A stretch of 64,000 bases of DNA, from assembly GCA_026770575.1 (NCBI GenBank), contig MU657193.1:290735-354734 (forward strand). The letters are read 5' to 3'. How positions within the stretch are numbered: the first letter of the stretch is position 1; every line of letters begins with the position of its first letter. Below, in pieces: positions 18,087-64,000 of this stretch. The notes beneath the pieces were generated by a model. It was given only the letters and a program-made list of their open reading frames with translations, did no database searches and had not been told where the DNA came from. This stretch comes from Pelagophyceae sp. CCMP2097 (taxonomy: Eukaryota > Sar > Pelagophyceae). Position numbers and translations under genes: made by a program.

Positions 18087-18456
18087 GCTTCTTCGCGACA
18101 CCAAACCGGAATTTTGCAAATGCGCCGCACACGTACCCCTACGTCTGAACACACAAAAAAGATCACTATCTTTTTCGTCTGTCAGCCTGAGAATCGGCTT
18201 TATGAATCTATGATTTATAAAACGGTCGTACGTTCAAGCACGTGTGCGCCGCACATTACCGAAACGCTCCAAAGCTTCTTCAACGACTACATAGTACATG
18301 TATGTTTAGCAAAAGTCCGAATTCGAAAGTTTCCGTGACCCGGTCCGCGTGCCGCGGGAAACCTCAAGCTCGGCCCAGGTATACGCTTGGTGTACGTCGC
18401 GCCGCTCTCGGCACCGCTCGAGCGCATCCACTTTTCCGCCTTGGGGCCCCGGGCGC
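18087..18456. other. Divergent intergenic region
   Basis: 370 bp between the starts of two divergently transcribed genes, less GC-rich than its flanks. It presumably holds both promoters. I see no TATA box or other motif that I would assign. Confidence 0.5.
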
Positions 18457-20514
18457 ATGTTCGGTCTAATGGTGTCGCCGCCGTCGGCGGACGACGCGCC
18501 GTTCGTCTTGGTCGTCTTCACGTGCATCGTGTGCACGGGCGTCATGGCCAACTTCACGCTCGTGGTGCCCATCACGCAAAATTATACCGAGTCGCTCCTC
18601 GCCTCTGCGCTCGTCGTGTCGGCGTACGCCGCGGGCGCGCTCGTCTCGCTCGCCTTCTGGTCGCGGCTGGACCACACCGCCGCGCGCGCGGCGTACGCGG
18701 CGCACGGCGCGCTCATGGGCGCCGGCAACTTGGCCTTTGGCGCCGTGGCCTGGGCCGCGCGCGGCCGCTACCGCGGGGCCGACTTTTACATCCTCCTCGC
18801 CGCGCGCTTCACCATCGGCCTCGAGGGCGGCGCCATGTACAACGCCAACCTCGCGCTGATAGCACACTCGGCGCCATCCAAGCACGGCAAATACTTGGCG
18901 ATGTACCAGGGCTTTGTCGGCTTTGGCCTCGTCCTCGGGCCCGCCATCGCCGCGTCCGCGCAAGCCGTCGGCTTCGCCGCCGGCAGCGGCGCCCAGGTCC
19001 AGGACGCGCTGCCGGCCTTCCTCATGGCCGCCTGGGGCTTCGTCCTCGTCGCCGCCGTCTGGGCCTACCTCCCGGCGGACTGCGGCGCCGAGCAGCACCG
19101 CCTCGCCACCGCCGCGCAGGCGCGGCCCGCGGGCAGCCTCGACGAGGCGCTGGCCCCAGAGGCCGCGGGGTCGGCCCCAGCGGAGACGTCGACGCCGGCG
19201 CAGGACGATTCCGTGCTGCTGGTGCAGACGTTCCTCGGCAACTTCCTGCGCATCTTCCAGCGCCTCGGCTGGGAGGTCGGCGCCGTCCTCGTGCTGCGCG
19301 ACGAGTTCGACTGGTCCCTCGTCGGCGCCGGCTACGCTTTGGCCGGGTTTGGCGTGCTCCAGGGCGTGGCGCAGTTCCTCTTTGCGTTTTCGGCGCGCGC
19401 GCACAACGCGGCCGTCATCGAAGTTCTCGGCGCCGTCGAGCTGCTCTCCATCTGCGGCATGTTCCTCAAGGCGCCCACGAATAACCAGCAGCGCGGCGGG
19501 TACTCGTTTATATTCGTGTGCGTCTCCGCGACCTTTTACGTCGCAAACTGCCTCACCTCCGCGCCGTACAACTCCGTCATCCTCGAACGCGCGCGCGGCG
19601 CCGCCGCCGCGCACCCGCCGCGGCAGGCGCCCTGCCTCCGCGCGTCGCAGTACGGCATCTTTTGTGCGTTTGCAGCGGCACCTCTGGCCGTCCGCGGCGC
19701 CATGGCCCTCACATCAGTCTCCGCAGAAAACCTCGCAGCCGTCCTCCTCCTCGGCTGGGCGGCGCAGGCCATCTGCAACGCCTGGCTCCTCGGCGGCGCC
19801 GCGACGCCGCTCATCCTCGCCGTTTCCGGCGCGACCTTTGGCGCAATCGTCTGGGCCGTCACCGACCGCAGCGTCGGCGGCACGGGCGCCGGCGGCGCCT
19901 TCTCCTGGCACCCCATCTTCATGGCCCTGGCCTTCTTCGGCCTCATGACGCCGGGGCAGTTGGTTTACCGTCCCGACGTCAACGCCATCTTCGGCCGCGA
20001 CGACGACAAAGCCGCCAAGCGCAAGCAGCACGCGGCGCTCATGGTGGCTGCCACGGTCGTCGCCGTGCTGGCCTACGCCTGTATCTTCGCGGCGCACGTC
20101 GAGTCCGGCGAGTCGCAGGTCGGCGCGGGCGAGACGGCGTCGCGGACGACGCACGCCGTGCTCGGCTACGTCGTCCTGCTCTGGCTCGGCGTCCAGGCGG
20201 CCGTCGGCGGCCTCAAGGAGCGGTTCCTGCGCAACCAGCACGTCCGCGCCTTCCCGTGGCACGGCGACTCTGGCAAGGGCCTGCTCCTCGCGGGCTACGC
20301 GGTGGCCACGCTCGGCTTCTGGCTCAAGATGAGCACCAACCGTGGCGGCTGGAGCGGCGCGCTCAAGCTCTCGCTCACCGCCGGTGCCCTCGTCCTCTTC
20401 GGCTTCATGGCCCTCCCGCGGCCCGCCGCCCGGGCCGTCGCGGACCCCGACAAGGACGCCCCGGAACGCATCCCCGACTCGGAACGCACCGAACCCGAAG
20501 CCGGCCTCGCCTAG
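18457..20514 (+). CDS. MFS transporter fused to a cytochrome b561 domain
   Basis: A single-exon gene of 685 residues starting at the first in-frame ATG. Residues 1-470 are a 12-helix-type major facilitator (SALVVSAYAAGALVSLAFW, FTIGLEGGAMYNANLALIAH, YLAMYQGFVGFGLVLGPA), most like SPX/CLN7-type MFS proteins. From about residue 480 a second membrane module begins with FSWHPIFMALAFFGLMTPG. It continues through KRKQHAALM, RTTHAVLGYVVLLWLGVQ and FPWHGDSGKG, the spaced histidines and helices of a cytochrome b561 or b561-like core that binds two b hemes. There is no stop or frame change between the two. Substrate and direction are unknown; an ascorbate- or ferric-type transmembrane electron transfer linked to solute transport is an inference only. 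Confidence 0.78.
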   Translation: MFGLMVSPPSADDAPFVLVVFTCIVCTGVMANFTLVVPITQNYTESLLASALVVSAYAAGALVSLAFWSRLDHTAARAAYAAHGALMGAGNLAFGAVAWAARGRYRGADFYILLAARFTIGLEGGAMYNANLALIAHSAPSKHGKYLAMYQGFVGFGLVLGPAIAASAQAVGFAAGSGAQVQDALPAFLMAAWGFVLVAAVWAYLPADCGAEQHRLATAAQARPAGSLDEALAPEAAGSAPAETSTPAQDDSVLLVQTFLGNFLRIFQRLGWEVGAVLVLRDEFDWSLVGAGYALAGFGVLQGVAQFLFAFSARAHNAAVIEVLGAVELLSICGMFLKAPTNNQQRGGYSFIFVCVSATFYVANCLTSAPYNSVILERARGAAAAHPPRQAPCLRASQYGIFCAFAAAPLAVRGAMALTSVSAENLAAVLLLGWAAQAICNAWLLGGAATPLILAVSGATFGAIVWAVTDRSVGGTGAGGAFSWHPIFMALAFFGLMTPGQLVYRPDVNAIFGRDDDKAAKRKQHAALMVAATVVAVLAYACIFAAHVESGESQVGAGETASRTTHAVLGYVVLLWLGVQAAVGGLKERFLRNQHVRAFPWHGDSGKGLLLAGYAVATLGFWLKMSTNRGGWSGALKLSLTAGALVLFGFMALPRPAARAVADPDKDAPERIPDSERTEPEAGLA

Positions 20515-39571: not shown

Positions 39572-41485
39572 CTAGAACATGGAGCCGAGGAGCTTTTTGA
39601 GGCCGAGGGCCTTGTTTGCCAGGCCGTGTGCGTAGAAGAGCTCGACGACGCCCTGGGCGAAGACGTGGCCCTTGCCCTTGGACGGGTACTGCATGGGCGC
39701 CGGGATGGCCGTGCGCAGGCCCGGGAAGCGGTCGACGCAGCAGGACCGGACGCAGCAGAGGCCGCGCAGGCCCTCGGGCCCGGCGAAGCGGTCGAAGCCG
39801 CTGAGGCCCGTGCCTCCAAAGGGCAGCGACTGCGAGAGGTAGGTGCAGCCCTCGAGGTCGTTGACGGCGCTCATGCCCGCGTTGAGCCGCGCGGCGACGC
39901 TCTGCGCGCGCTTCGCGTCGCCGGCAAAGGCGCAGCTCGAGAGCGCGAAGCCGCAGGCGTTTGCGCGCTCGACGGCGTCGTCGTCGGACTCCGTCTTGAA
40001 GATGCACATGATGGGGCCGAAGATCTCCTCCTGCGCGATGCGCGCGTCGCGCGGCACGTCGCCGAGGACCGTCGGCGGGAAGAACGAGGCGCCTGCGGGC
40101 GTCGTTGCGTGGGCGCCCTTGCCGCGCGAGAGCACGACGGCGCCGCGCGAAACGGCGTCGTCGACGAGGCCCTGGAGCCGCGCGACGGTGGGCGCGCCCA
40201 TGGGGATGGCGCCGCAGTCGACTTCCGCGGCGAGGAGCGAGGAGCCGTACGTCATGCCGTCGACGACTGCGGCGATCTTTGACGTGAACGCGGCGTAGAC
40301 GGCTTTGTCGACGAAGAAGCGCTCGGGCCCGGCGCAGTTCTGGCCCATGCTCTGAAAGACGCCGCGCAGCGCCACCTGGACGACGCGGTCCATCTCTGCG
40401 CCGACGACGTCGCCGCAGACGACGAAGGGGTCCTTGCCGCCGAGCTCGAGGACGACGGGCGTGAGCGTCTTGGCCGCCGCCGCCATGACCACCTTGCCGA
40501 CGCCGGGCGACCCGACGAAGATGACCTTGTCGACGCCGCCGTTGACGAGAGCGGCGCCCGTGGCGCCGTAGCCGTGGACGATTTGCACGAGGTCCACCGG
40601 CGCGCCCGCCGCCTCGAGGCAGGCGCGGATGATGGCGCCATAGTAGCCCGCCGCGCTCCACGACGCGTATTCCGACACTTTAATCACAATCGCGTTGCCC
40701 GAGAAGAGCGCGGCGGAGAGCGGGTTGAAGACGTTGTGGAACGGGTAGTTCCACGGGACGATGGCGCCGACGACGCCGAGGGGCCGGTACTCGACGTGCA
40801 CCTTCTTCGTGAACATGACAGTCGTGCCCGCGCTCCGGTTCTCCGGGAGCAGCGCCGCCTCGCCCTCGGCGGCGAGCCACTTGAGCTTCTCGCACGTGAC
40901 GAGGATCTCGCCGAAGACGGCGTCGGTGAGCGTCTTACCAGAGTCTCGCACGGCGACGCGCGCAATCGACTCTTGGTTCCTAGTTCGGGGGCTCGGCTTT
41001 TCCGCGGGCGTTTAAAGGCCACGCACTCGACGATGTAGCGCAGCATGATGTTCATGAGCTGCCGCCGCTGCGCGAACGTCGACGAGGCCCACTTGGCCTG
41101 CGCGGTTCGCGCGCGGCCGACGGCATCGACGACGCCCTGCGGTTTCGTCGCGGGCACGGTACCGAGCGAGTCCAGCGTCGCCGGGTCCCAGCAGGGCACG
41201 ACGCTCTGGTCCGCCGTGCCCGCCGCCACGCGCGCCTCGTGCGCCGCGAGGTCAAACTTGCCCCCGGGCGCCTCAATCGACGCGAGCGAGACCACGACCT
41301 TTGGCACCTATAAGCGGAGCGTTCCAAAGGGACCGCGGCTGGCCAGCAACTGCCCTTCGAACGAAGGACACTGCTTTGGGTACCGCGGGCTGCAGAAGCG
41401 CCTCGCCGACTTTCCAGGCGACGTACGCCCCGAAGACGCAGGCCACGCCGTAGAGCAGCGCGTCCGTGTCCACGCTGAGCAGCAT
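39572..41485 (-). CDS. Membrane-anchored aldehyde dehydrogenase, ALDH22/MSC7 family
   Basis: NAD(P)-dependent aldehyde oxidation. Exons 41485-41384, 41307-41027 and 40979-39572 join in phase (596 residues). The first exon encodes an N-terminal TM anchor (LLYGVACVFGAYVAWKVG), a feature of plant ALDH22A1 and yeast Msc7. Catalytic elements are VVGAIVPWNYPFHN, the Glu in LELGGKDPF and the Cys in SMGQNCAGPERF, with EEIFGPIM, LPFGGTGLSGFDRFAG and PMQYPSKGKG at the C-terminus as in ALDH22. Introns of 76 and 47 bp use GTACCC and GTGCGT donors. The natural aldehyde substrate of this family is not established. Confidence 0.85.
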
Positions 41486-46951: not shown

Positions 46952-48460
46952 TTACGGATTTCGCGCGCCTCGCCGCGCGACGTGGGCGTCGATCTTCGCC
47001 GCCGTCGCTCGGAGGTCGGCCGCCTTGTCGTCGGCGTAGTGGTACGCCGGGTGGACGGCGAACGCGTTCAGCGTGCAGAGCGCGCCGTGGCGCTCATCGA
47101 TGGTGTAGCGGTTCAGCGGGACCTCGTCGTACTTGAAGACGAAGAGATCCACGCGGTCGAGGATGGCCGCGTAGTGCCGAGCCGTGCTCATCCACAGCGC
47201 CGCCGTGAAGTACGGGTACGGCGCCACGCCCGGCCCGTGCACCGTGAGGCCGCCCGCCGGCGCGCCGGCGGCGCCCGAGGCCGGTGCGAACGCGGAATCG
47301 AGGCCGCGGTCCCACCAGCTGGGGATGTCCCGCAGCGCGAGGTCGAGCGAGAGCGTCATGCACTTTTTGTCCCACCGGATCGGGTGGCCGCCCTTGAACC
47401 AGCCCGGCAAGCCGGAGACCCTGGACCACCACTCGGTTTCGTTCCACGGCGACATGGGCATCGGGATCCGGTCCATGTGGATCCGCCCCAGCCGGCCGAG
47501 CTTGGACTGGGCGAAGCAGCCGTCGAGCTCCCGAACCGCGGCGGGGCCGAGCGCACCCTCCGCGAACAGCCGGCCCGTCGGCACGGCGTTGTGGACCAGC
47601 GGCGTCGCGATGGTGCAGCCCGCCCGCGCGAGCCACGCCTCGGGCGCTCCGTGCGCGGCGCCGCCCGCGTCGGCCGCGGCCCAGGCGAAGGCGCGCCAGG
47701 CGTGCGCGGGCACGAAGAGGTCGTCGTCGGACGAGACGATGTGGTGGTAGCCCTGAAGCGCGGCGATACGAACCATGGCGCACGCCTTTGCCATGTAATC
47801 GTTCTGCTGCACCGGCGGCGCCACGAACGGATTGGCGTTTGTAAAGATGTGGACGCCGCCGAGGAGGCTCCGGCGGCCCTCGAAGTGGCCGAGCCAGAAC
47901 TCGGCGTCGTAGCCCCGCGTTGCCGCCTCCGGGCCGCACAAGACGTGAAGCCTCGGCGCCGCCAGCCGCGCGGTGCCGCGCTCCGCGTCCGGAGGGAACG
48001 CCTCGCGCAGCGACCGCGCCAGCAGCGGCAGCGCCGCGTCGGTGGTGTGCTGCAGGAGCATGATGCCCACCGTCGCGGCGTCGGCCGCGCCGCCGGTGTC
48101 GGGTTTCGCGTCGACCTCAGCGCGCGTCTCGTCGAGCTCCCAGGCGAGCCTGCCGAGGCCGCTCGCGTCGGCCGCCTGCGCCGCGGTCGCGCACGCCGCG
48201 CGCACGAGCCGCGCGTTGGCCACAGAGTCGCAGCCCGGCCGCCCCGCGCAAGCCTCGCGCGTCAGCTGCGCCGCGCTGGCGCTGGCGCGCAGCGTCGCCG
48301 TGACGTTGCGCCCCGCGAGCGCCAGGCGCACGGAAACGCCCACGTACCGCGCGCGCAAGAGCGGCAGCGCCGGCACGTCGTCCAAGTTGAACGCTGCGGC
48401 GAACGACGCCACCAGCGCAAAAAGCCACAGGAAATGGCGCCACCGCCGCAGCGCGCCCAT
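46952..48460 (-). CDS. Type II membrane glycosyltransferase-like protein
   Basis: Single exon, 502 residues. A single N-terminal signal-anchor (HFLWLFALVASFAAAF) is followed by a lumenal domain. The putative nucleotide-sugar site is IVSSDDDLFVPAHAWRAF, a DxD-type motif after a hydrophobic strand, and the upstream YDAEFWLGHFEGRR and WFKGGHPIRWDKKCMTL regions look like acceptor loops. The plan is that of Golgi glycosyltransferases, but I cannot place it in a CAZy family. It diverges from the PhyH gene, whose start is 177 bp away. Confidence 0.55.
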   Translation of the reverse strand: MGALRRWRHFLWLFALVASFAAAFNLDDVPALPLLRARYVGVSVRLALAGRNVTATLRASASAAQLTREACAGRPGCDSVANARLVRAACATAAQAADASGLGRLAWELDETRAEVDAKPDTGGAADAATVGIMLLQHTTDAALPLLARSLREAFPPDAERGTARLAAPRLHVLCGPEAATRGYDAEFWLGHFEGRRSLLGGVHIFTNANPFVAPPVQQNDYMAKACAMVRIAALQGYHHIVSSDDDLFVPAHAWRAFAWAAADAGGAAHGAPEAWLARAGCTIATPLVHNAVPTGRLFAEGALGPAAVRELDGCFAQSKLGRLGRIHMDRIPMPMSPWNETEWWSRVSGLPGWFKGGHPIRWDKKCMTLSLDLALRDIPSWWDRGLDSAFAPASGAAGAPAGGLTVHGPGVAPYPYFTAALWMSTARHYAAILDRVDLFVFKYDEVPLNRYTIDERHGALCTLNAFAVHPAYHYADDKAADLRATAAKIDAHVARRGARNP

Positions 48461-48636
48461 GGCGCGGCCGGACCGCGCGGCGTCGCGGGGTCCTTCTCGG
48501 TCCGAACGTCCGATTCTTCCAAGTCTAAGAGCTTTTCTTGAGTAAAATACCCACAAACGCGCGCGCGCCTTCGAAAGGCTGGCGCCGTCGACGCAGGGCC
48601 GATCCGCCGCGTCCGCTCGGTCCAAACTCCGAGCCG

Positions 48637-49665
48637 ATGCGGGCGATGCGGGCGGCTTGGGTATTTTTCGCCGCGGCGCGCCTGTGCGGCGGGTCGGAGG
48701 CGCCGTCGGCGGCGGCTCTCGCTTCGGCGGGCGCGGCGTTCCGCCGCGACGGCCTCGCCGTCCTCGAGGGCTTTGCGGATTCGGTCGAGGTGGCGGCGAT
48801 GAAGGCCAGAATGGCCGAACTGCGCGCGTCTCACGACGCGTCGGCGGCGGAGGCGCATGTCTTCGTCACGGACGAAAGGCAGGGCGCGCAGCAGGCCAAG
48901 TCGGCGCACTTCTTCGAGAGCGCGGCGCAGACGAGCTTCTTCTACGAGGACGACGGCGAAACACTCAACAAGTGTGGCCACGGCCTCCACCTCGCCGACG
49001 ACGCCTTTGGCCGCTACAGCGCGTCGCCGGCAATCCGCACCTTGCTCGGCGCCTTTGGCCTCGAGGACCCGGTGCTGCCGCAGTCCATGTACATATTTAA
49101 AGAGGCGGTCCGCGGCGGCGCCGTCACGTCGCACCAGGACGCGACGTTTCTCCACACCAAGCCCGCGCAAACCGTCGTCGGCCTCTGGCTCGCGCTCGAC
49201 GACGCCACGCTGGAAAACGGCTGCCTCTGGGCGCGCAACGGCTCGCACGCCGAGCCGATACGCCGCACGTTTGTGCGCGCCCCCGGCGAGCAGTACAAGA
49301 TGGTCTTCGAGGAGACTGGGGCCGCGCCAGCGCCCGCTGACTACCTCGACGGCCGCCTTTTGGACGCGGCGCGGCGTTTGGGGCCCAAAGACGCCGCGGC
49401 GTGGGAGGGGAAGAACGTCGACGCGGCGGCGGCACTTAAAAACGGCTTCGTGCCGCTGCCCGTCAAGGCGGGCACGCTCGTCGCGTTCGCGGGCACGCTC
49501 GACCACCTCTCGCTGCCAAACGAGTCGCCCCACGACCGCCACACCTTCCAGCTCCACGCCGTCGAGGGCCCCGGCGCCGGCATGGAATGGTCCGACTCCA
49601 ACTGGCTCCAGTACACCGACAAGGCGCCCTTCCCGCGCCTCGCCGACCGGGGCCGCGAGCTGTGA
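48637..49665 (+). CDS. Phytanoyl-CoA dioxygenase (PhyH) family protein
   Basis: 2OG-Fe(II) oxygenase acting on lipids or small molecules. Single exon, 342 residues. A hydrophobic leader (MRAMRAAWVFFAAARLCGG) suggests secretory or organelle entry. The family core includes FRRDGLAVLEGFADSVEV at the start, TSHQDATFLHTKP (the HxD iron ligands), VGLWLALDDATLENGCLW and DHLSLPNESPHDRHTFQLH with the distal ligand. It is most like PHYHD1. The gene is convergent with the GNAT, with 31 bp between their stop codons. Confidence 0.82.
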   Translation: MRAMRAAWVFFAAARLCGGSEAPSAAALASAGAAFRRDGLAVLEGFADSVEVAAMKARMAELRASHDASAAEAHVFVTDERQGAQQAKSAHFFESAAQTSFFYEDDGETLNKCGHGLHLADDAFGRYSASPAIRTLLGAFGLEDPVLPQSMYIFKEAVRGGAVTSHQDATFLHTKPAQTVVGLWLALDDATLENGCLWARNGSHAEPIRRTFVRAPGEQYKMVFEETGAAPAPADYLDGRLLDAARRLGPKDAAAWEGKNVDAAAALKNGFVPLPVKAGTLVAFAGTLDHLSLPNESPHDRHTFQLHAVEGPGAGMEWSDSNWLQYTDKAPFPRLADRGREL

Positions 49666-54216: not shown

Positions 54217-57200
54217 TCATTGAATGAGGGCGTCGCTTTTGTCGAGCCTGGCGCCGCGGAGCGCGAGCTCGGCGACGACCTGGACGGCGCGCGTGGACGC
54301 GTCTGCGCGGGGCCGGAGCCAGGGCACGGCCACGACCGCCGCGTCTGCGCGTTTCGCGCGCCACGCGGCTGCGTAGTACGACAAGTCGCCCTTGAGCGAG
54401 AGGTCGACGAGGACCACCGGGCGCCCGGCGGCGCGCGCCACGACGGCGTCGAGCGCGTCCATGAAGCGCACGGGCGCTGTGTAGAGCGCCCCGAGGTCGC
54501 ACAGCGTCGGCGCCGCCTCGTCGACGAAGCCGCCGCCGGCGCACGAGACGAACGGCGCCCGCGGCCGCCGCGCGGCGCGGCCGACGCGCGGCCGCGTGAC
54601 GACGAAGTGGAGCGGCGAGTGATACGCGTGTGGCGCGTCCCCGAGGATGGTGCGGCGGGCACCGCGCGGTAGCGCCGCCGCCAGCGCGTCGACGGCCGCG
54701 CGCCGCCCCGCGACCATAAAGTCGCCCTCGGAGTACTGCGCGGCGACGACGAGCGTGCCGTCGTCCGTGTCGGCGACGGCGCGGTCCAGCGCGGCGCGGT
54801 CCACGCCCGACACCACGGCCATGGCGCCGCCGGGTTCAAAGCCGGCGTACGCCGTGTCCGCGAAGAGCGACACGACGTCGTCTTCCGTGAGCGCCCCCGC
54901 GCCGACGGCGGCAGCGAGCTCGCCGATAGAGTAGCCGAGGTACGCCACCGGCCGCAGGCCACAGCGCCGCAGGAGCAGCAGCCGCAAAGCGTTTTGAACG
55001 GCAAACGCCGCGCAGTTGCGGTCGCGGACGCCGAGCGCCGCCAGGCAGTCCGCGCGCTCGGCGTCCCCGCGGTCGCGGGCGGCCTCGGCCGGCGCCACGA
55101 TGGCGGCGAGCCTGGCGGCAAAGCCGCGGAAGCCCTCGCGCGCCTCGAACTTTGCCGCGACGCGCTCGCAGTCTCCGCGGAACTCCACGTCCTCTGCCCA
55201 GAGCGCCGCCGCGACGCCCGCGTAGAGCGACTCGCCGCCGAACATGACGACGACGCACGGCCCGCGCCGCGCCGCGGCCGCGTTCGACGGCGTTTCAAAA
55301 ACGAGTCGCTTCCAGGAACCGTCGTCCGCGCCGGCGCCGGCGACCGAGAGCCGGCCGACGGCGGCCGCCAGCGAGCCGTCGTGCAGCCGGCCGACGACGA
55401 CGACGGCGGCGTGCGCCGCGCGGTCTACCAGCGCAGCCGCCGTCGCGCGGACCTGGCGCCGGACCTCGACGAGCGAAGGTGATTCGAGCGCGCATGAGAG
55501 GTGCGCCGCCGCGCGGCAGACGTCGGCGTCCGTCGCGCCGCGGACGACGAGCGCGCGGAGCTCGCCGGGCCGCGCGGGCCCCCAAGCCGCGGGCCACCGG
55601 CCGCCCTTGCGGGCGAGGTGGCCCCTGGCGATTGCGCAGAGGTCGGCGTCGGAGAGAGGCTCGACGCCGTCGCCGGCGTGTCGCCACGCGCCGTGCGCGC
55701 CATCGCGCGCGGCTCCCCGTGCGGGGTTGCCCTGGTAGCGGCCACCGCCACCGTAGGTGCCGCGCAGGGCCATGGTCCCCGGGCCGAAGACGACGCCGTC
55801 GCCGACTTGGGCGCCGGGCAGAAACGCCGCGACGCCGAAGAGCGCGGCGTCGTCGCCGACGGCGCTGCGGCGGAAGGCGAGTTTGCCGTTGCCGGCAAAG
55901 TCGTGGGCGAAGACTGCGGCCGCATTTTCGATGTAAGCTCGGTTTCCGACGGCTATGACGTCGTGGTCCGGCGGTCCGATTTTCCCAATGCGCGCGCGTT
56001 TGCCCACGGCCGCGCCGAGGCCACGCCAGATTATGCTGTACACTTCGGTGCACGCAAACGCGGCTAGCCAACTGTCGACGTCTAGGTTCAGCCGGAACTG
56101 CGCCAGCCAGCACGCCGTCGCCACACTCCGCGTCGGCCACAGCGACGGCGGCCGGTCCTCCGTAAAAGCGTCGTCGGCGTCGAGGGGCACGACGCGCCCG
56201 ACGAGGAGCCACTTGTGCAACACGGCGACGGCGGCGAAGAGCAGGCCGACGCAAATGCGCAGCGGCGGCATGACCAGCACCAATGCGGCGATGGCCGCGG
56301 CCAGCGACGCCGCCGGATGGCTTTCAGGCTCGCTGCAGACGTCGCTCACGTCCTCAGGCGCGCGGCAGGCGTCGTCGGCAACTGCGGCAACGAGGACGCG
56401 CTCGAAGAAGCGGCGCGCGTGGTCCGCGGGCCAGGCTACGGCGCCGAGCGCCAGCACCTCGAGGGCCAGCCCGACGACGAGCAGCGCCGCCGTGACGGCG
56501 TGGTACGCGGCGAGCGGCAGCTCGGCCGTCCAGACCGCGTCCGTCTGCTTGGGACCGCCCGCGGCGGCCTCGCCGCGCTTAAAGGCGAGGACGCGCTGAG
56601 ACGCGTGCGCGATGCCGATAAAAGCGGTGCCCGACTCGACGGTGGCGCCGACTCCGAGCAAAGCGAGGTCGCCGACGGCCGCGCCGGCCTCGACGGTCGC
56701 GCCGGGCGCGACCGTCGCCGCGAAGCCCACGTAGCCGCCGCGCTCGACGCGGACCGCCGCGTGCGTCACGTCAAAGCCGCCCTTGCGTTTGGTGCAGTAC
56801 GACGTCACGAACTGCGGCATGCCGGCCAGAAACGCGTCGGGCCCGATGTGCAGCAGCGGCGCCGTGGAACCGCAAAACTCGCGGAAGAACGCGACGTTGG
56901 CGGACCAGTCGACGTCCGCGCCGAGGCAGCGGAGCCAGGCGTTTTGCGCGACGTTGGACCGGAAGAGCGCGTTCACAAACGCGTTCGAGGCCAACGCCGC
57001 GGCGGCGTCGACGTACTCGAGGCGCAGCTTGTACCCAACAGTCAGAGCGCGCGTCGACGGCTCGAGGCCGCCGCCGACGAGGAGCCGCTGCGCAGCGACG
57101 GCGTGCGCGCAGGCGAGCGCGCCAAACGCCAGGTAGCCTGCCACCCCCGCGGCCACGGCGCCGCCCAGGCAGCACCAGGCCGCGAAGCGCGCCGCCAGCG

Positions 57201-60200
57201 TCACCGCGCCCGCAGTCGTCGCGAGGAGCGTCGCAGCAAAGGCCGCTTCGACGGCGGCCTGCAACGGCCAGGCGTACCGCGCCGACGCGTAGTAGAGCGT
57301 CGCGTCCTCGGCGGCGTCTGCGGGCACCGGGCCGTCGACCGTGGACCCGCGGACGCGGCGCTCGACGCGGCCCTGCACGAACGCGCGCGCCCCGGCTGTG
57401 GCCGTGACGCCGAGCACCGCGCCGCCGGCGACGACGGCGTCGGCGCCAAGGACGGCGCCGTTTCCGACGATGGCGTAGCGCGCGGTGAGCGAGGCGCCGT
57501 CGTCGCTAAACGCCGTGGGCCGGAGCGCGGCGCCGCGCTGCAACACGGCGCCGTCGCCGATGACGCAGAGGTCGGGCGCGTCGATGCAGGCGCCCGGCGA
57601 CGAAATCGAAACGCCGCGGCCCACTTTGGCGCCGAGGAGGCGGAACCACCAGACGAAGAAAACCGAGTCCGACGGCAGCGCCCAGGCGAGGGCCGCGCCG
57701 ACCTGCGCCACCTCCGTCGTCGCGAGCTCGCACCGCAGCGCGTACGCCGACCACCGCCACTCTGAATCGCACGCGCGGTACTTTCCCACGAGCGTCCACT
57801 TGCAGGCCAGCGCCCACGCCAGCGACGCGCACGCGCCGGCGACCATCGCCGCCAGCGTGCTGGGGAACGTCGACTCGAAGCGCGACCAGGCAAACGCGCA
57901 CGCCGCGCCCACAACGACCATACGCAGCGCGCCAAAGTACACCCTGGCCACGGCCCACACGACGAGCCACTCGCCGCCCGGCACGCGCCGCTCGAAGCGC
58001 GCCGCGGCAGACTCCACCGGAGAAGCCGTCTCCACCGGAGAAGCGCCGGCCCGCCGACGCGGCGCCCGCGGCCGCGGGGTCTTGAGGTGCTTGTCGGCGT
58101 CTGCCGACAGTTCAGCGCGGACGCGCCGGACGAGCTCGCCGAACGTCGCCGCCTCGAGGAGGAGCATGGGCGACGCGGCGAAGCGCAGCGCGGCCCCGAC
58201 GTCGGCGGCCACCTGCGACCCGTCGATGGAGTCCAAGCCCAGCGAATCCAGCGGCGTTTCGCCCGACAGCGCGCCGCCTTGCTTGGCGTACTTTGCGAGG
58301 ACCAGACGCAACGTGTCCTCGACGTCCGCCGGACTCGACAGGACGGTGACCTCGTCGCCGCTGCTGCACTGGCCCTGGCTCCTCGCCGTCCCGCTCGCCT
58401 CCTCCTCTTCGCTGCTGCTCTGGGCGTTTCGAGGCAGCTCGTCGACGACTCTTGAGACGAGCTCGCCGAACGTCTCCACCTCGAGGAGGAGCATGGGCGA
58501 CGCCGCAAAGCGGAAGGCGGCGCCGACGTCAGCAGAAATTTGCGACCCGTCGATCGAGTCCAACCCGAGCGACGTCAGCCGCGTCTCGCTCGACAGAGCG
58601 GCGCCGCCCTCGCCATGCTTCAAATACTTTCCGAGGACCGCGCGCAGCCTGCCTTCGAAGTCGTCGCCGCTTCTCCGGTGGCCCTCTCTTCTCCCGTGGC
58701 CGTTGCGCTTCGCCGTTTGGGGCCTGGCTTCGTCGTCGTCGTCGTCGCGCTGGACATTTCGAGGCAGCTCGTCGACGATCCGCGCGACGAGTTCGCCAAT
58801 CGTCTCCACCTCGAGAAGCAACATCGGCGACGCCGAAAAACCAAAAGCGGCGCCGACGTCGGCGGCGATCTGCGACCCGTCGATCGAGTCCAACCCGAGC
58901 GACGAGAGCCGCGTTTCGCCGTCCAGCGCCGCCTCTTTCGCGCCGCGCGCGTACCTTTGCAGGAGCGCCCGCAGCGTCCCTTCGACGTCGCCGCCCTTCG
59001 TGGCTGCCCGAGGCGGGGCGCCGCCGAGCCGCCTGGATCGCCGCTTCTCCCCGCTGGGCGGCTTGGCGGCGCCGTCGGCCGGCGAGACGAGACGGCTGAA
59101 GAATTTCCGGCGATGGCCGTCGCCGCGGCAGGACCGCCGGAGCGCGTCGCCCTGGAAGCGCGCGACCGTGGCGACGGCGGCCGGTGCCGCGCCGCGCGTC
59201 GCCTCGTGCAGCGCGAGGAGCGCGCCGAGGCCGCGGAGCGCGTCGGCGTCGCTGAGCGGGGCCCAGACGGAAGTGCGCGCGAGCTTGGCGGCCAAGCCGC
59301 GCGCCATGCCGCGCTCGGCCCAGGGCCCCCACTGAATGGCCAGGGCCGCCTTGCCCTCTCGCCGCCGCCACCGCGCCAGCGCGTCAAGCGCGCCGTTGGC
59401 CGCGCCGTAGCAGGCCTGGCCCGCGTTGCCCATGAGCGCAGTCACCGACGAAAAGAGCCAGAAGAACGCCAGGCCATCGCAGAGCCCGTCGCCGGCCTCG
59501 GCAAAGGCGCGGTCCAGGTAGATCGCGGCGTGCGCCTTGGCCTCGAAGACGCTGCGCGCCGACGCCTCGAAGCCCGCGTAGTTGGCTAGAAGGTCGTCCT
59601 GTAGCACGCCCGCCGCGTGCACCACGCCGACGACGTACCGCCGGCGCGCGCGGACGAGCGCGCGGACGTCGGCCCACTTCCCGACGTCGCACCGCACGAC
59701 GTCGATAGACGTCCCCTTCTCCGCGGCGAGGGCGCGCAGGTCATCGAGGCGCCCCGCGCACTCGGGCGTCTCGCCGGACCGCGAGACGAGGACCATGCGC
59801 GGCGCGCCGCCGTCGGGCGCCTGGCGCAGCAGCCAAGTCGCCACCGCCGCGCCGAGGGCGCCCGTGCCGCCCGTGATGAGGACCTGGGCGTCGCGGCTCG
59901 AGCCGACGAGGCCGCCGAAATCGAGGTAGGCGTCTGCGGCCGAGTGCGGCGACGAGGCGAGGGTCCGCGAGACGCGACCGACGGCGCGGCGCGCCGGCGA
60001 CAGCCGCACGTCGGCGTCGTCGTCGCACGCGACCTCGGCGCCGACGCGGCATACCATCGCGGCCTCCAAATCGCCCTCGAGGTCGACGCACCGGATGCTG
60101 AGCCCGCCCGCCGCCGCCGAGCCCTGCACGAGGCTCAGCTCGAGGCGCGCGACCGTCGCGGCGCCCCAGAGCGCCCCGCCGGCGACGGCGCGGCCGTCCG

Positions 60201-63200
60201 AAAGAGTTGCGCCTTTGGAGGCTGCCGCGCCGCCGTCGGAGCACCGCCGCGTCGGACCCGTTTGTTCCGCGTGGACGTCGCGCGTCAGCACGACGACGCG
60301 GCCGACCCTCGCCGCCGGCAGCTTTGCGAGGCCGCTCAGCAGCTGGAGCAGCGCGGCCGTCGTCCGCTCCAAGAGGTCGCAGCCGTCGGCGTCGTCCATG
60401 CCCGCGTCCAGGCCGTAGCCGAAGACGACGCGGCGGACGCGCGCGCCCGCAGCGAGCCGAAGCCCGACGTCGGCGACGACCGCGGCCACGTCGCTTTCGA
60501 CTTGCTCGATCGTCGCCGCGAGGCGCGGCGCAGCGACCGCCTCGTGCACCGCCGTGGCCGCCTCGTGCGGCCCAGCGAGGCAGCGCTCGACGAAGCCGGC
60601 CGCGTCGGGGAAGACGACGTCAAAGGCGTCGACCGCAGCGCTCAGCGGCACCGCCTCGCCAACGAGCGGCGGCGCGTCGCCGGGGCGCGGCGCGTCCACC
60701 CAGTCCACGGCGTAGACGACTTCGTCGGCGAGGCGGGCGTCCTCCAGCGCCGCCGGATCCTCTTCGTCGCCCGCGTCGTCGAGCCACCGCCGCTCGTTGG
60801 CGAACGCCGTCGGCGGCGGCACGGAGAAGATGGCGTCGTCGTAGTCTATTTTCGCGGCGATCGGCGCCTCCCAGAGGCTCGTCAGGCTCTCCGCCGACGC
60901 AGCCCTCGGGAGGGCGCGCGCCGCCGGTGGCCGCGCCGCGCGCAGCGCGACGGCCACGGCGGCGAAAACGTCGCCATCGGAGCGCCGCCGCAGCGTCGGC
61001 ACGGCGACGACGCCGCCTTGGCAGCCTGCTTCGGAAAAGATGGCCTCGATGTGGCGGACGAGCTGCGGGTGCGGTCCAATTTCGACGAAGGTGGTGCAGC
61101 CGTACGGCGGCGCGGCGGCGCAGCGGATGGCGTCTTGGAAGCGGACGCGGCTGCGCGCGTGCGCGACCCAAAACTCGGCCCCGGGCGCCGCCTCAAACGG
61201 CGCCGCCGTCAGCGCCGAGATGCACGCCATTTTCGGCGCCGCGCGCGGGAAGCGGAGCGCGTCGATGCCCGCCCGCAGCGCCGGCAGCGCCGCGTCGACG
61301 CCTCGCGAGTGGAAGCCCGTCGTCACGGCGAGGACCGTCACCTTCCCAAACGCGCGCTCCAACGCCACCTTCGCAGCGGCCAGGCTCGCCGCGTCGGCGC
61401 AGGCGACGACGGTGGCCCGCGGCGCGTTCTCGGCTGCGATTTCGAAGAGGTCCGTCTCGCCGATTTCAGCCGAGATCTCGATAGCCGACGCTCCGACGGC
61501 GAGCATGCCGCCGTTTGACCGCGCGCAGTGGCCGTCGACGGCGCGGCCTCGGATTGCGGCGACGGCCATGCCGTCTGCGAGGCTGAGGAAGCCGGAGCAG
61601 ACGAGGGCGGCGACCTCGCCGAGTGAGTGCCCGACGGCCGCCGACGCCTCGATGCCGCCGTCGGCGCAGAGCGATACGAAGAGCGCGTGCTGCAGCGCCA
61701 GCTGCGCCGTCTGCGCGACCTCGGACGACTTGAACGCCGAATCAGCGTCCGCGGGCGCCCAGTCGAAGAGCGCGCCGCTGACGTCCGTCCTCGCGCCCGC
61801 CGCGCCCGGCGCGAGCGCGGCGTCGGCGGCCGCGGCCGCGGCGCGGAGCGCCGCGGCGAACGCCGGCGACAGCGCGAGCAGCGGCCGGCCCATGCCGCCG
61901 TACGCGGCGCCCTGCCCCGTGAAGACGACACAGACGCGCTCTCCAGTGCCCAGCGAAGCCGTCGAAGAGGAGATCCGGTCGCTCAAAGGCTCGATCCACT
62001 CGAAGGCGCCGTGCCGCGAGCATTGCGGCGCCTGTGTCGTCGACCGCGCGAGATCGAGCAGCGTCGCAAGCGCACCGTCGCCGTCCCTGGCGCTCAAGAC
62101 GGCGGCGCACGCCTCCGACGTGCCGTGGTAGACGGCGCGCCGCACATCGTTGCACAGCTCCGCCTCGTCTTCCAGGTCCGCGCCGCCGCGCCGATTTGTG
62201 AAGTGGCGCGCCCACGCGCGGGCCTTGCGCCGCAGGCCCGCGGCCGAGTGGCTCTCGAGCCGGATCACGAGCCGCCGCGGACCGGCCGTGAAAGGGCCCG
62301 CCGAAAAGGGGCGCGCCTCGACGCATAAGCGGTCGTCTGCCGTGCGCGCGCGTGGCCGTCGTCCGTCGAGGAGGGCGTGCGCGTTCGTGCCCGCGAAGCC
62401 AAAGCCGCTGGCGCCGCAGCGTTTGTCTTGCGGCCGTGCTGCCGCGTTCGCCGTGACGACAACGACGCCGCACGTGGCCCAGTCGACGACGCGGTTCGGT
62501 ACGCGGACGTGGAGCGACGGCGGCAGGCGCTCGCGGTGTAGGCAGCACGCGACTTTTACCAACGCCGCGGCGCCAGCGCCGCACTCGAGGTGGCCGAGGT
62601 TCGACTTGACGCTCGCGCAGCGCAGTGGCGTCTCGCCGCCGAGGACCCGCGACAGCGCCGCGAGCTCGATGGGGTCGCCGAGGCGCGTGCCCGTGCCGTG
62701 CGCCTCGACGTAGCCCGGCGGCGCGTGCGCGCCGCCGGCGTGCGCGGGCGGCGCCGCCGCGCGCTCGAGCGCGGCGCGGAGCATGCGCGCCTGCGCCGCC
62801 GGGTTGGGTGCCGTAAGGCCGTTTGAGCGGCCGTCTTGGTTCACTGCCGTCGACGCCAAAATGATACCACCCCGGAGATCCGCAACCGCCTCGGCGGACG
62901 ACGCCGCGACGAGCGTGACGAAGGCGCAACCTTCGCCTCGCACGTAGCCGTCGGCTTCGTCGTCGCCAAACGCGCAGCGGTGCGTCGGCGAGAGCATGCC
63001 CGCGCGCGCAAACGCGTCAGACCAGCGCTTGACGAGCTGCACGTTGACGCCGCCCACCAGCGCGGCGACATCGGCGCGCTGCAGCAGCCGCGAACGCGCG
63101 GCGTCCAAAGCCACGAGCGCGGACGAGCACGCCGTGTCGATTGCGACGCTGGCGCCCCTCAGGTCGAGCGCGTAGGCGACGCGGTTCGCGACGGCCGCCG

Positions 63201-64000
63201 TCGTGCCGACGGCCGTCGCCGTGAACGCGGAAGGCGAACCGGCGTAGGCGGCGTAGTCGACCTGCGTGACGCCGACGTACGTCGCCACGGCCTTGCCGCG
63301 CACCGCGCGCAGCGCGCCGCCGTCGAAGAGGCACGACGCCTCTAAAGCCTCGGCGGCGCACTGCAAACAAAGCCGCTGCTGCGGGTCCATGGCGCACGCC
63401 TCGGCGGCGCCGACGTGGAACGCCGCGCCGTCAAAGCCCGCCAGCACGGAAGCGTCCAGGTAGCCCGACGGCCGCCCGTTCGAGGGCCGCCCCGCCGGCG
63501 GCGGCCGCACGGCGTGCGCCGCCGACTCCAAAAGCACCCAGAGCTCGCGCGGCGAGTTGACGCCGCCGGGCAGGCGGCACGCCGCGCCCAGCACGCCGAT
63601 GACCAGCCGTGCCTCGTCGGCGCCGCTGCGCACGCTCAAGGCACCGGGGGCCCTCTGCGCCGCCGCGTCGTGGTCCGCCTCGGGCGGCGCTTCGACGAGG
63701 AGGCCGAGGATGTGCTGGGCGATGCCGCGGATCGAGACGCACTCGAAGAGCAGCGTCGGCGACAGCGCCAGGTCGCTCTCCTGCGCCAGCTTTGCCGCGA
63801 GCGCCACCGCGTGCAGGCTCGAGACGCCGACGGTCGCAAGGGCGGCGTCGGCGTCGGCCGCAGCAGCGTCGTCGCCGACGACTTCGCGGAGCGCCGCGCG
63901 CACGCGGAGCGAAATGAGGCCGGCCTGCGCCTCGGGCTCGAGGACGGCGACGTCCGCCGCCCAGCCGTCGCCGAGCGCGCGCAGGTCCGGCGCCGACTGC
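54217..64000 (-). CDS. Giant modular polyketide synthase with Pls-like membrane/LbH region and C-terminal AT (5' partial)
   Basis: One open frame of about 3260 codons runs from the right edge to a TGA at 54219-54217; the start is outside. Numbering from 63903, the order is ACP (GVSSL, S about 29), KS 100-515 (Cys in DTACSSAL, about 259; His in EAHGTGT and SNLGHLE), AT 657-970 (GHSLGE, S about 760; GFHS motif, malonyl-like), KR-psi and KR 1061-1590 (GGTGALG, Ser-Tyr-Asn triad) and three ACPs (GLDSIDGS at S1673, S1783, S1892). Next come three rounds of TM segments plus hexapeptide/LbH repeats, 1978-2730, each with a W/R-x-LVG boundary. This matches the C-terminal region of bacterial poly-lysine synthetase (Pls). 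A second AT (GYSIGE, S about 2992; HAYHS) ends the chain. No DH, ER or thioesterase is seen. Product unknown. Confidence 0.85.
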   Translation of the reverse strand, partial: QSAPDLRALGDGWAADVAVLEPEAQAGLISLRVRAALREVVGDDAAAADADAALATVGVSSLHAVALAAKLAQESDLALSPTLLFECVSIRGIAQHILGLLVEAPPEADHDAAAQRAPGALSVRSGADEARLVIGVLGAACRLPGGVNSPRELWVLLESAAHAVRPPPAGRPSNGRPSGYLDASVLAGFDGAAFHVGAAEACAMDPQQRLCLQCAAEALEASCLFDGGALRAVRGKAVATYVGVTQVDYAAYAGSPSAFTATAVGTTAAVANRVAYALDLRGASVAIDTACSSALVALDAARSRLLQRADVAALVGGVNVQLVKRWSDAFARAGMLSPTHRCAFGDDEADGYVRGEGCAFVTLVAASSAEAVADLRGGIILASTAVNQDGRSNGLTAPNPAAQARMLRAALERAAAPPAHAGGAHAPPGYVEAHGTGTRLGDPIELAALSRVLGGETPLRCASVKSNLGHLECGAGAAALVKVACCLHRERLPPSLHVRVPNRVVDWATCGVVVVTANAAARPQDKRCGASGFGFAGTNAHALLDGRRPRARTADDRLCVEARPFSAGPFTAGPRRLVIRLESHSAAGLRRKARAWARHFTNRRGGADLEDEAELCNDVRRAVYHGTSEACAAVLSARDGDGALATLLDLARSTTQAPQCSRHGAFEWIEPLSDRISSSTASLGTGERVCVVFTGQGAAYGGMGRPLLALSPAFAAALRAAAAAADAALAPGAAGARTDVSGALFDWAPADADSAFKSSEVAQTAQLALQHALFVSLCADGGIEASAAVGHSLGEVAALVCSGFLSLADGMAVAAIRGRAVDGHCARSNGGMLAVGASAIEISAEIGETDLFEIAAENAPRATVVACADAASLAAAKVALERAFGKVTVLAVTTGFHSRGVDAALPALRAGIDALRFPRAAPKMACISALTAAPFEAAPGAEFWVAHARSRVRFQDAIRCAAAPPYGCTTFVEIGPHPQLVRHIEAIFSEAGCQGGVVAVPTLRRRSDGDVFAAVAVALRAARPPAARALPRAASAESLTSLWEAPIAAKIDYDDAIFSVPPPTAFANERRWLDDAGDEEDPAALEDARLADEVVYAVDWVDAPRPGDAPPLVGEAVPLSAAVDAFDVVFPDAAGFVERCLAGPHEAATAVHEAVAAPRLAATIEQVESDVAAVVADVGLRLAAGARVRRVVFGYGLDAGMDDADGCDLLERTTAALLQLLSGLAKLPAARVGRVVVLTRDVHAEQTGPTRRCSDGGAAASKGATLSDGRAVAGGALWGAATVARLELSLVQGSAAAGGLSIRCVDLEGDLEAAMVCRVGAEVACDDDADVRLSPARRAVGRVSRTLASSPHSAADAYLDFGGLVGSSRDAQVLITGGTGALGAAVATWLLRQAPDGGAPRMVLVSRSGETPECAGRLDDLRALAAEKGTSIDVVRCDVGKWADVRALVRARRRYVVGVVHAAGVLQDDLLANYAGFEASARSVFEAKAHAAIYLDRAFAEAGDGLCDGLAFFWLFSSVTALMGNAGQACYGAANGALDALARWRRREGKAALAIQWGPWAERGMARGLAAKLARTSVWAPLSDADALRGLGALLALHEATRGAAPAAVATVARFQGDALRRSCRGDGHRRKFFSRLVSPADGAAKPPSGEKRRSRRLGGAPPRAATKGGDVEGTLRALLQRYARGAKEAALDGETRLSSLGLDSIDGSQIAADVGAAFGFSASPMLLLEVETIGELVARIVDELPRNVQRDDDDDEARPQTAKRNGHGRREGHRRSGDDFEGRLRAVLGKYLKHGEGGAALSSETRLTSLGLDSIDGSQISADVGAAFRFAASPMLLLEVETFGELVSRVVDELPRNAQSSSEEEEASGTARSQGQCSSGDEVTVLSSPADVEDTLRLVLAKYAKQGGALSGETPLDSLGLDSIDGSQVAADVGAALRFAASPMLLLEAATFGELVRRVRAELSADADKHLKTPRPRAPRRRAGASPVETASPVESAAARFERRVPGGEWLVVWAVARVYFGALRMVVVGAACAFAWSRFESTFPSTLAAMVAGACASLAWALACKWTLVGKYRACDSEWRWSAYALRCELATTEVAQVGAALAWALPSDSVFFVWWFRLLGAKVGRGVSISSPGACIDAPDLCVIGDGAVLQRGAALRPTAFSDDGASLTARYAIVGNGAVLGADAVVAGGAVLGVTATAGARAFVQGRVERRVRGSTVDGPVPADAAEDATLYYASARYAWPLQAAVEAAFAATLLATTAGAVTLAARFAAWCCLGGAVAAGVAGYLAFGALACAHAVAAQRLLVGGGLEPSTRALTVGYKLRLEYVDAAAALASNAFVNALFRSNVAQNAWLRCLGADVDWSANVAFFREFCGSTAPLLHIGPDAFLAGMPQFVTSYCTKRKGGFDVTHAAVRVERGGYVGFAATVAPGATVEAGAAVGDLALLGVGATVESGTAFIGIAHASQRVLAFKRGEAAAGGPKQTDAVWTAELPLAAYHAVTAALLVVGLALEVLALGAVAWPADHARRFFERVLVAAVADDACRAPEDVSDVCSEPESHPAASLAAAIAALVLVMPPLRICVGLLFAAVAVLHKWLLVGRVVPLDADDAFTEDRPPSLWPTRSVATACWLAQFRLNLDVDSWLAAFACTEVYSIIWRGLGAAVGKRARIGKIGPPDHDVIAVGNRAYIENAAAVFAHDFAGNGKLAFRRSAVGDDAALFGVAAFLPGAQVGDGVVFGPGTMALRGTYGGGGRYQGNPARGAARDGAHGAWRHAGDGVEPLSDADLCAIARGHLARKGGRWPAAWGPARPGELRALVVRGATDADVCRAAAHLSCALESPSLVEVRRQVRATAAALVDRAAHAAVVVVGRLHDGSLAAAVGRLSVAGAGADDGSWKRLVFETPSNAAAARRGPCVVVMFGGESLYAGVAAALWAEDVEFRGDCERVAAKFEAREGFRGFAARLAAIVAPAEAARDRGDAERADCLAALGVRDRNCAAFAVQNALRLLLLRRCGLRPVAYLGYSIGELAAAVGAGALTEDDVVSLFADTAYAGFEPGGAMAVVSGVDRAALDRAVADTDDGTLVVAAQYSEGDFMVAGRRAAVDALAAALPRGARRTILGDAPHAYHSPLHFVVTRPRVGRAARRPRAPFVSCAGGGFVDEAAPTLCDLGALYTAPVRFMDALDAVVARAAGRPVVLVDLSLKGDLSYYAAAWRAKRADAAVVAVPWLRPRADASTRAVQVVAELALRGARLDKSDALIQ
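58105..58995 (-). repeat. Three tandem near-identical ACP units
   Basis: Within the synthase, acyl-carrier units recur at a spacing of about 330 bp (serines near 58887, 58557 and 58230). Each reads GLDSIDGSQ(I/V)(A/S)ADVGAA and then ASPMLLLE. Linkers are acidic or basic and variable. The near-identity suggests recent duplication or gene conversion. Confidence 0.9.

Follow-up and report, generated by a model that had tools for sequence, protein, structure and literature searches.

A putative membrane-anchored type I polyketide synthase with a Pls-like beta-helix region in pelagophyte-type algae

The DNA analyzed here (the window) is a stretch of 64,000 nucleotides from the alga Pelagophyceae sp. 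CCMP2097 (contig MU657193.1). Its final part harbors, on the reverse strand, a single uninterrupted open reading frame (63999-54217, 3260 codons including the stop codon at 54217-54219), the 5' end of which lies past the window edge. Matches in Pfam and NCBIfam, together with motifs, yield the domain order ACP-KS-AT1-KR-ACP-ACP-ACP-Pls-like region-AT2 (ACP, acyl carrier protein; KS, ketosynthase; AT, acyltransferase; KR, ketoreductase), i.e. a polyketide synthase (PKS) module followed by a membrane/beta-helix region reminiscent of Pls-type enzymes and by a second AT. Codon positions are coding-like in all 17 blocks of the frame (200 codons each, the last one shorter), with a G+C content of 83-94% at the third and 53-62% at the second position. 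All feature coordinates given for this protein refer to the reverse strand.

The PKS part begins with an ACP (63709-63906, residues 32-97, PF00550, motif GVSSLH) ahead of a KS with a C-terminal extension (62329-63600, residues 134-557), which matches PF00109, PF02801, and, below the cut-off, PF16197. AT1 (60973-61926, residues 692-1009, PF00698) is of the extender type by motif, with GHSLGE, an Arg 25 positions behind the Ser, and FHS. The KR (59314-59886, residues 1372-1562, PF08659 with E=2.4e-43) harbors GGTGALG and the Ser/Tyr/Asn motifs. Three tandem ACPs (PF00550; 58120-59004, limits approximate) follow, with LGLDSID serines at residues 1705, 1815, and 1924. In total, Pfam reports four PP-binding stretches, the KS, two acyltransferase stretches, and the KR on this frame. 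A motif check revealed the features of a type I PKS, namely the Cys-His-His motifs of the KS, Ser-Arg-His of the AT, and the ACP serine. A beta-hydroxyacyl chain, extended once or more, is the product to be expected on the carrier.

Two further proteins share this architecture. A search with the whole frame, which admitted large proteins and scored the 2468 candidates sharing most words, found P0001 (4417 aa) as the sole relative, with 36% identity over 92% of the Pls-like part. A search from P0001, with 1498 candidates chosen likewise, found P0047 (4042 aa), the hypothetical protein CTAYLR_003120 of the pelagophyte Chrysophaeum taylorii; no other fusion appeared among the candidates of either search. 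The three proteins are colinear from the ACP ahead of the KS through the last AT. P0001 and P0047 start with an AMP-binding (A) domain of the FadD-like type, followed by a KR and by one ACP or two, and we infer the same A-KR start for the window protein, whose own start falls beyond the window. The A domain of P0001 resembles PRK06187, a long-chain acyl-CoA ligase (5e-105, under the cut-off; top among the best 25 of 191 NCBIfam matches), and that of P0047 has feruloyl- and fatty-acyl-CoA synthetases as nearest solved structures. The motifs of KS, AT1, and KR are intact in all three proteins, and the Ser-Tyr-Asn pattern is kept in both KRs of P0001 and of P0047. Counted by serine motif, the window protein has 1+3 ACPs, P0001 1+2, and P0047 2+3. 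Around this serine, the ACP copies of P0047 hardly differ, which points to recent duplication.

No separate dehydratase or enoylreductase and no thioesterase family stands in the Pfam lists, which extend to E of 1 for the window protein and of 0.01 for P0001 and P0047. The matches of P0047 to PF13561 (named enoyl-ACP reductase) and PF16363 (named dehydratase) are of the short-chain-dehydrogenase type and overlap the KRs. The first-pass annotation of the locus had described a eukaryotic PKS without a thioesterase and had proposed to look for the same order in other pelagophytes. The lists agree with the former, in contrast to PKSs that end with a C-terminal thioesterase domain, and P0047 provides the latter.

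The eukaryotic nature is borne out by adjoining frames in the window, which match Xrn1, Utp25, Sec63 with DnaJ, ubiquitin hydrolase, and calpain families; because of these neighbors, the window is taken as a eukaryotic chromosome. Within this analysis, the assignment to a pelagophyte leans on the named relative P0047 and on the high G+C content. The neighbors also bear on the suspicion that the frame is an artefact, be it a chimeric assembly, a pair of genes mistaken for one, or contaminating bacterial DNA. Every domain junction is crossed without a stop and with steady codon use, and the identical domain order is found on two further contigs, one of which encodes the deposited C. taylorii protein. 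An artefact is therefore scarcely credible and already largely refuted; bacterial contamination in particular was ruled out by the eukaryotic-type neighbors and the algal relative P0047.

The Pls-like region spans 55660-57987 (residues 2005-2780). Pls enzymes act by joining amino acids, and the products of the Pls/PosA family are poly-amino acids with isopeptide bonds. In the parts of the literature consulted, the family (TIGR02353) is described with epsilon-poly-L-lysine synthetase and the delta-poly-L-ornithine synthetase PosA (PMC10522769), and fungal Epls is also of the Pls type (PMC7179176). TIGR02353 matches the whole window frame with E=1.8e-31 in two stretches, the best covering residues 2025-2509, and the excised piece with 4.8e-34; a profile search with an 816-residue piece yielded 45 Pls-type proteins, to which the region can be aligned. 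Chance hexapeptides were ruled out as a source of the similarity, as TIGR02353 scores 117.7 bits on the window piece vs. 35.5 for the next NCBIfam match.

Hydropathy predicts six membrane segments as three pairs in the window protein and P0001, on a scale that also flags some soluble stretches; in P0047, the first segment shows only at a lower threshold. Behind each pair lies a left-handed beta-helix (LbH) repeat: C1 (57310-57747, about residues 2085-2230) behind pair 1 (2012-2066), C2 (56530-57042, about 2320-2490) behind pair 2 (2252-2298), and C3 (55714-56148, about 2618-2762) behind pair 3 (2504-2588). The limits derive from hydropathy and a structure model, combined with hhalign for C1 and C2 and with a fold match for C3. 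In a 48-row family alignment, 45 rows of which are not algal-type, hhalign finds the repeats homologous to one another (C1 vs. C3, E=1.8e-37; C2 vs. C1, E=6.2e-33; remaining value, E=1.2e-29), and the third repeat of the window protein matches the first one of P0001 with E=0.002. The LbH fold is supported by the structure model and fold comparison. Both the kinship with the Pls C-terminal region and the three-fold plan of membrane segments and LbH repeats had been proposed from the letters of the DNA, with a TIGR02353 search as the suggested check, and these results uphold them. For the membrane part, no solved structure related by sequence was found (best E, 0.086); the absence of a Pls structure from the fold matches listed bears neither way.

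The region resembles Pls/PosA in its six membrane segments in three pairs, its three beta-helix repeats, and a carrier directly ahead. It differs in that the membrane part of Pls/PosA stands behind an amino-acid A-T unit, whereas that of the window protein follows KS-AT-KR-ACPs and precedes an AT. The question arises whether the protein is nevertheless a true Pls-type homopolymer synthase that polymerizes an amino acid, with the PKS module making or capping the monomer. The adjoining carrier and a histidine in common with Pls-type proteins would suit this assumption. However, the A domain of P0001 and P0047 is acyl-CoA-ligase-like, so that an amino-acid A domain with thiolation before the membrane part is not what is found, and most of the conserved acidic columns, which might bind a cationic monomer, have disappeared. 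Such a function is thus considered very improbable.

The histidine in question, His2699 in the third repeat (codon 55903-55905), is the sole histidine in the 32 columns shared family-wide and occurs without exception in all 48 sequences (45/45 Pls-type and 3/3 algal-type). It is a candidate catalytic base. Asp2680, Lys2596, and Arg2659 are likewise kept in the three algal-type proteins. Among these proteins, C1-C3 are 40-59% identical, in contrast to 13-27% in the linker behind, which indicates that the repeats are under constraint.

Several observations weigh against reading the protein, as is done below, as a membrane-anchored PKS with an acyl-transferring Pls-like domain. Eight acidic columns are conserved in at least 40 of the 45 Pls-type proteins (some adjoin gaps in the alignment); in the algal-type proteins, two of them are acidic in 3/3, one in 2/3, and five in 0/3. 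The residues flanking the third-repeat histidine (QTHLF..DR in others) are changed as well. Consequently, the activity may be altered or lost. The acidic-column loss is taken to mean that a site for a cationic amino acid has vanished and that a different substrate is used, though lost activity is a further explanation. TIGR02353 scores of the excised pieces, 117.7 (window), 139.8 (P0001), and 107.6 bits (P0047), stay below the curated cut-off of 423.1, which the Pls-type controls P0002 (736.1), P0007 (562.3), and P0016 (694.2) pass. Judged by sequence, the region is therefore a distant relative of TIGR02353 on a separate branch and no member by score. In a tree of 48 sequences, the algal-type group has an SH-aLRT support of 100. 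Its branch is very long, at 4.06 changes per column, and its position in the tree is not trusted. Finally, the structure model gives low confidence in the membrane helices.

The loss of five of the eight acidic columns and of the motif beside the histidine, together with the low family scores, would fit a region that serves as a mere membrane anchor and scaffold, with beta-helices no longer catalytic and AT2 or a separate enzyme releasing the product. On the other hand, the histidine, Asp2680, Lys2596, and Arg2659 are kept in 3/3 proteins, and the repeats are constrained compared to the linker. A purely structural role is regarded as rather unlikely.

AT2 (54244-55266, residues 2912-3252) retains Ser3024 in GYSIGE and the His of YHSPLH; 25 positions behind the Ser it has Thr, where AT1 has Arg. 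AT-like acyl hydrolases of PKSs are characterized by the AT fold, a kept Ser-His pair, and the absence of the malonyl-binding Arg. All three features are seen in AT2, but a loading AT can look alike. The AT fold, Ser, and His are shared both with PksD, the bacillaene acyl hydrolase, and with the loading AT of AVES1, which is also similar to AT2 in sequence. In contrast to both, AT2 is located C-terminally behind a membrane region, and ATs of other PKSs match it equally well. Topology may vary within the group: P0047 has an additional hydrophobic segment (residues 3578-3596) in the linker that leads from the Pls-like part to AT2, and P0001 one at the N-terminus (residues 13-31), which would alter the topology of AT2. 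In the same linker, the window protein has no such segment at a threshold of 1.6; lowering it to 1.3 brings out a weak one (2852-2870). P0001 shows none at either.

Taken together, the protein is, with some reservation, best read as a type I PKS that pelagophyte-type algae would anchor in a membrane, and whose Pls-like domain would pass ACP-borne acyl chains to a nucleophile. The FadD-like A domain would activate and load an acid, the KS would add malonyl units supplied by AT1, and the KR would reduce them, so that the tandem ACPs would carry a beta-hydroxyacyl chain. Directly behind these carriers, the Pls-like beta-helix domain may then use the C3 histidine for acyl transfer to a hydroxyl or amine at the membrane, resulting either in conjugation to an acceptor or in joining of the units to one another. 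AT2, with its Ser-His pair but without the arginine of AT1, is supposed to load, transfer, or hydrolyze a non-malonyl acyl group and may replace a thioesterase. In the parts of the papers considered, amino acids of known Pls enzymes come from the carrier ahead of the membrane part (PMC10522769, PMC7179176). Here, carriers again directly precede the membrane part. A transfer as in known Pls enzymes, with a hydroxyacyl donor, appears most likely; oligomerization is possible.

A more specific proposal, put forward tentatively and rather to be doubted, is that of a polymer or conjugate synthase, in which PKS-made beta-hydroxyacyl monomers would be joined to an oligoester or would cap a membrane-bound acceptor, with AT2 setting length or release. 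If true, the system would do with hydroxyacyl units what polylysine synthesis does with lysine. The architecture would demonstrate that the Pls polymerizing domain is a transferable chain-end module, independent of amino acids, and that eukaryotic PKSs possess a membrane-bound chain ending besides thioesterase, reductase, and condensation domains. Speculatively, it is a candidate for making lipid conjugates or the polymers of mucilage or of the cell surface.

The domains themselves are known; their combination alters what each must do. Atypical domains such as LbH were noted in 2023 in AT-containing, single-KS, apparently iterative PKSs of C. taylorii, an antibiotic maker whose 13 PKS genes diverge strongly from those known in fungi and bacteria (PMC10366177), and P0047 is probably one of these LbH-containing PKSs. 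The covered parts of that paper contain no link to Pls, membrane segments, three-protein order, or second or altered terminal AT, and its main text uses the words hexapeptide, poly-lysine, and transmembrane 0 times. Among algal type I PKSs, single-KS enzymes with a cis AT are known, and so are N-terminal ligase domains, but the parts considered describe no membrane or beta-helix domain, and 'transmembrane' occurs 0 times in the main text (PMC4661987). In the portion consulted, a paper on Aureococcus (PMC10756674) refers to PKS genes, but not to this architecture. Apart from the LbH mention, the titles and abstract openings listed in searches of open-licence literature, many of them off topic, revealed no PKS-Pls fusion. 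The first-pass view that no such system had been described hence stands, within this coverage, for the Pls link, but not for LbH in pelagophyte PKSs, which is already published; the Pls kinship, membrane segments, shared order, and altered AT2 appear new.

Regarding distribution, the 816-residue profile search admits proteins of 0.55-1.75 times that length and is blind to large fusions; its 45 matches measure 1034-1383 aa, and none lists a KS. At 80 of 475 confirmed bacterial Pls-type loci, the Pls-like piece matched 80/80, whereas KS, AT1, and KR each matched 0/80 (E 1e-5, within flanks of at most 8 kb and less at several loci). The viral contigs scanned held no confirmed relative. An exclusively algal occurrence thus describes the extent of the searches made and is not proof.

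Elsewhere in the window, a frame at 46955-48865 on the reverse strand (637 codons) is coding-like in its codon positions, and nothing in Pfam matches it at E 1e-4. An unusual joining is seen at 18310-20511 on the forward strand, where a single frame has matches to a major facilitator transporter as well as to a eukaryotic cytochrome b561. An aldehyde dehydrogenase frame lies at 39575-41011 (reverse strand), and a phytanoyl-CoA dioxygenase type protein is encoded at 48529-49665 (forward strand), about 4.6 kb off the PKS end.
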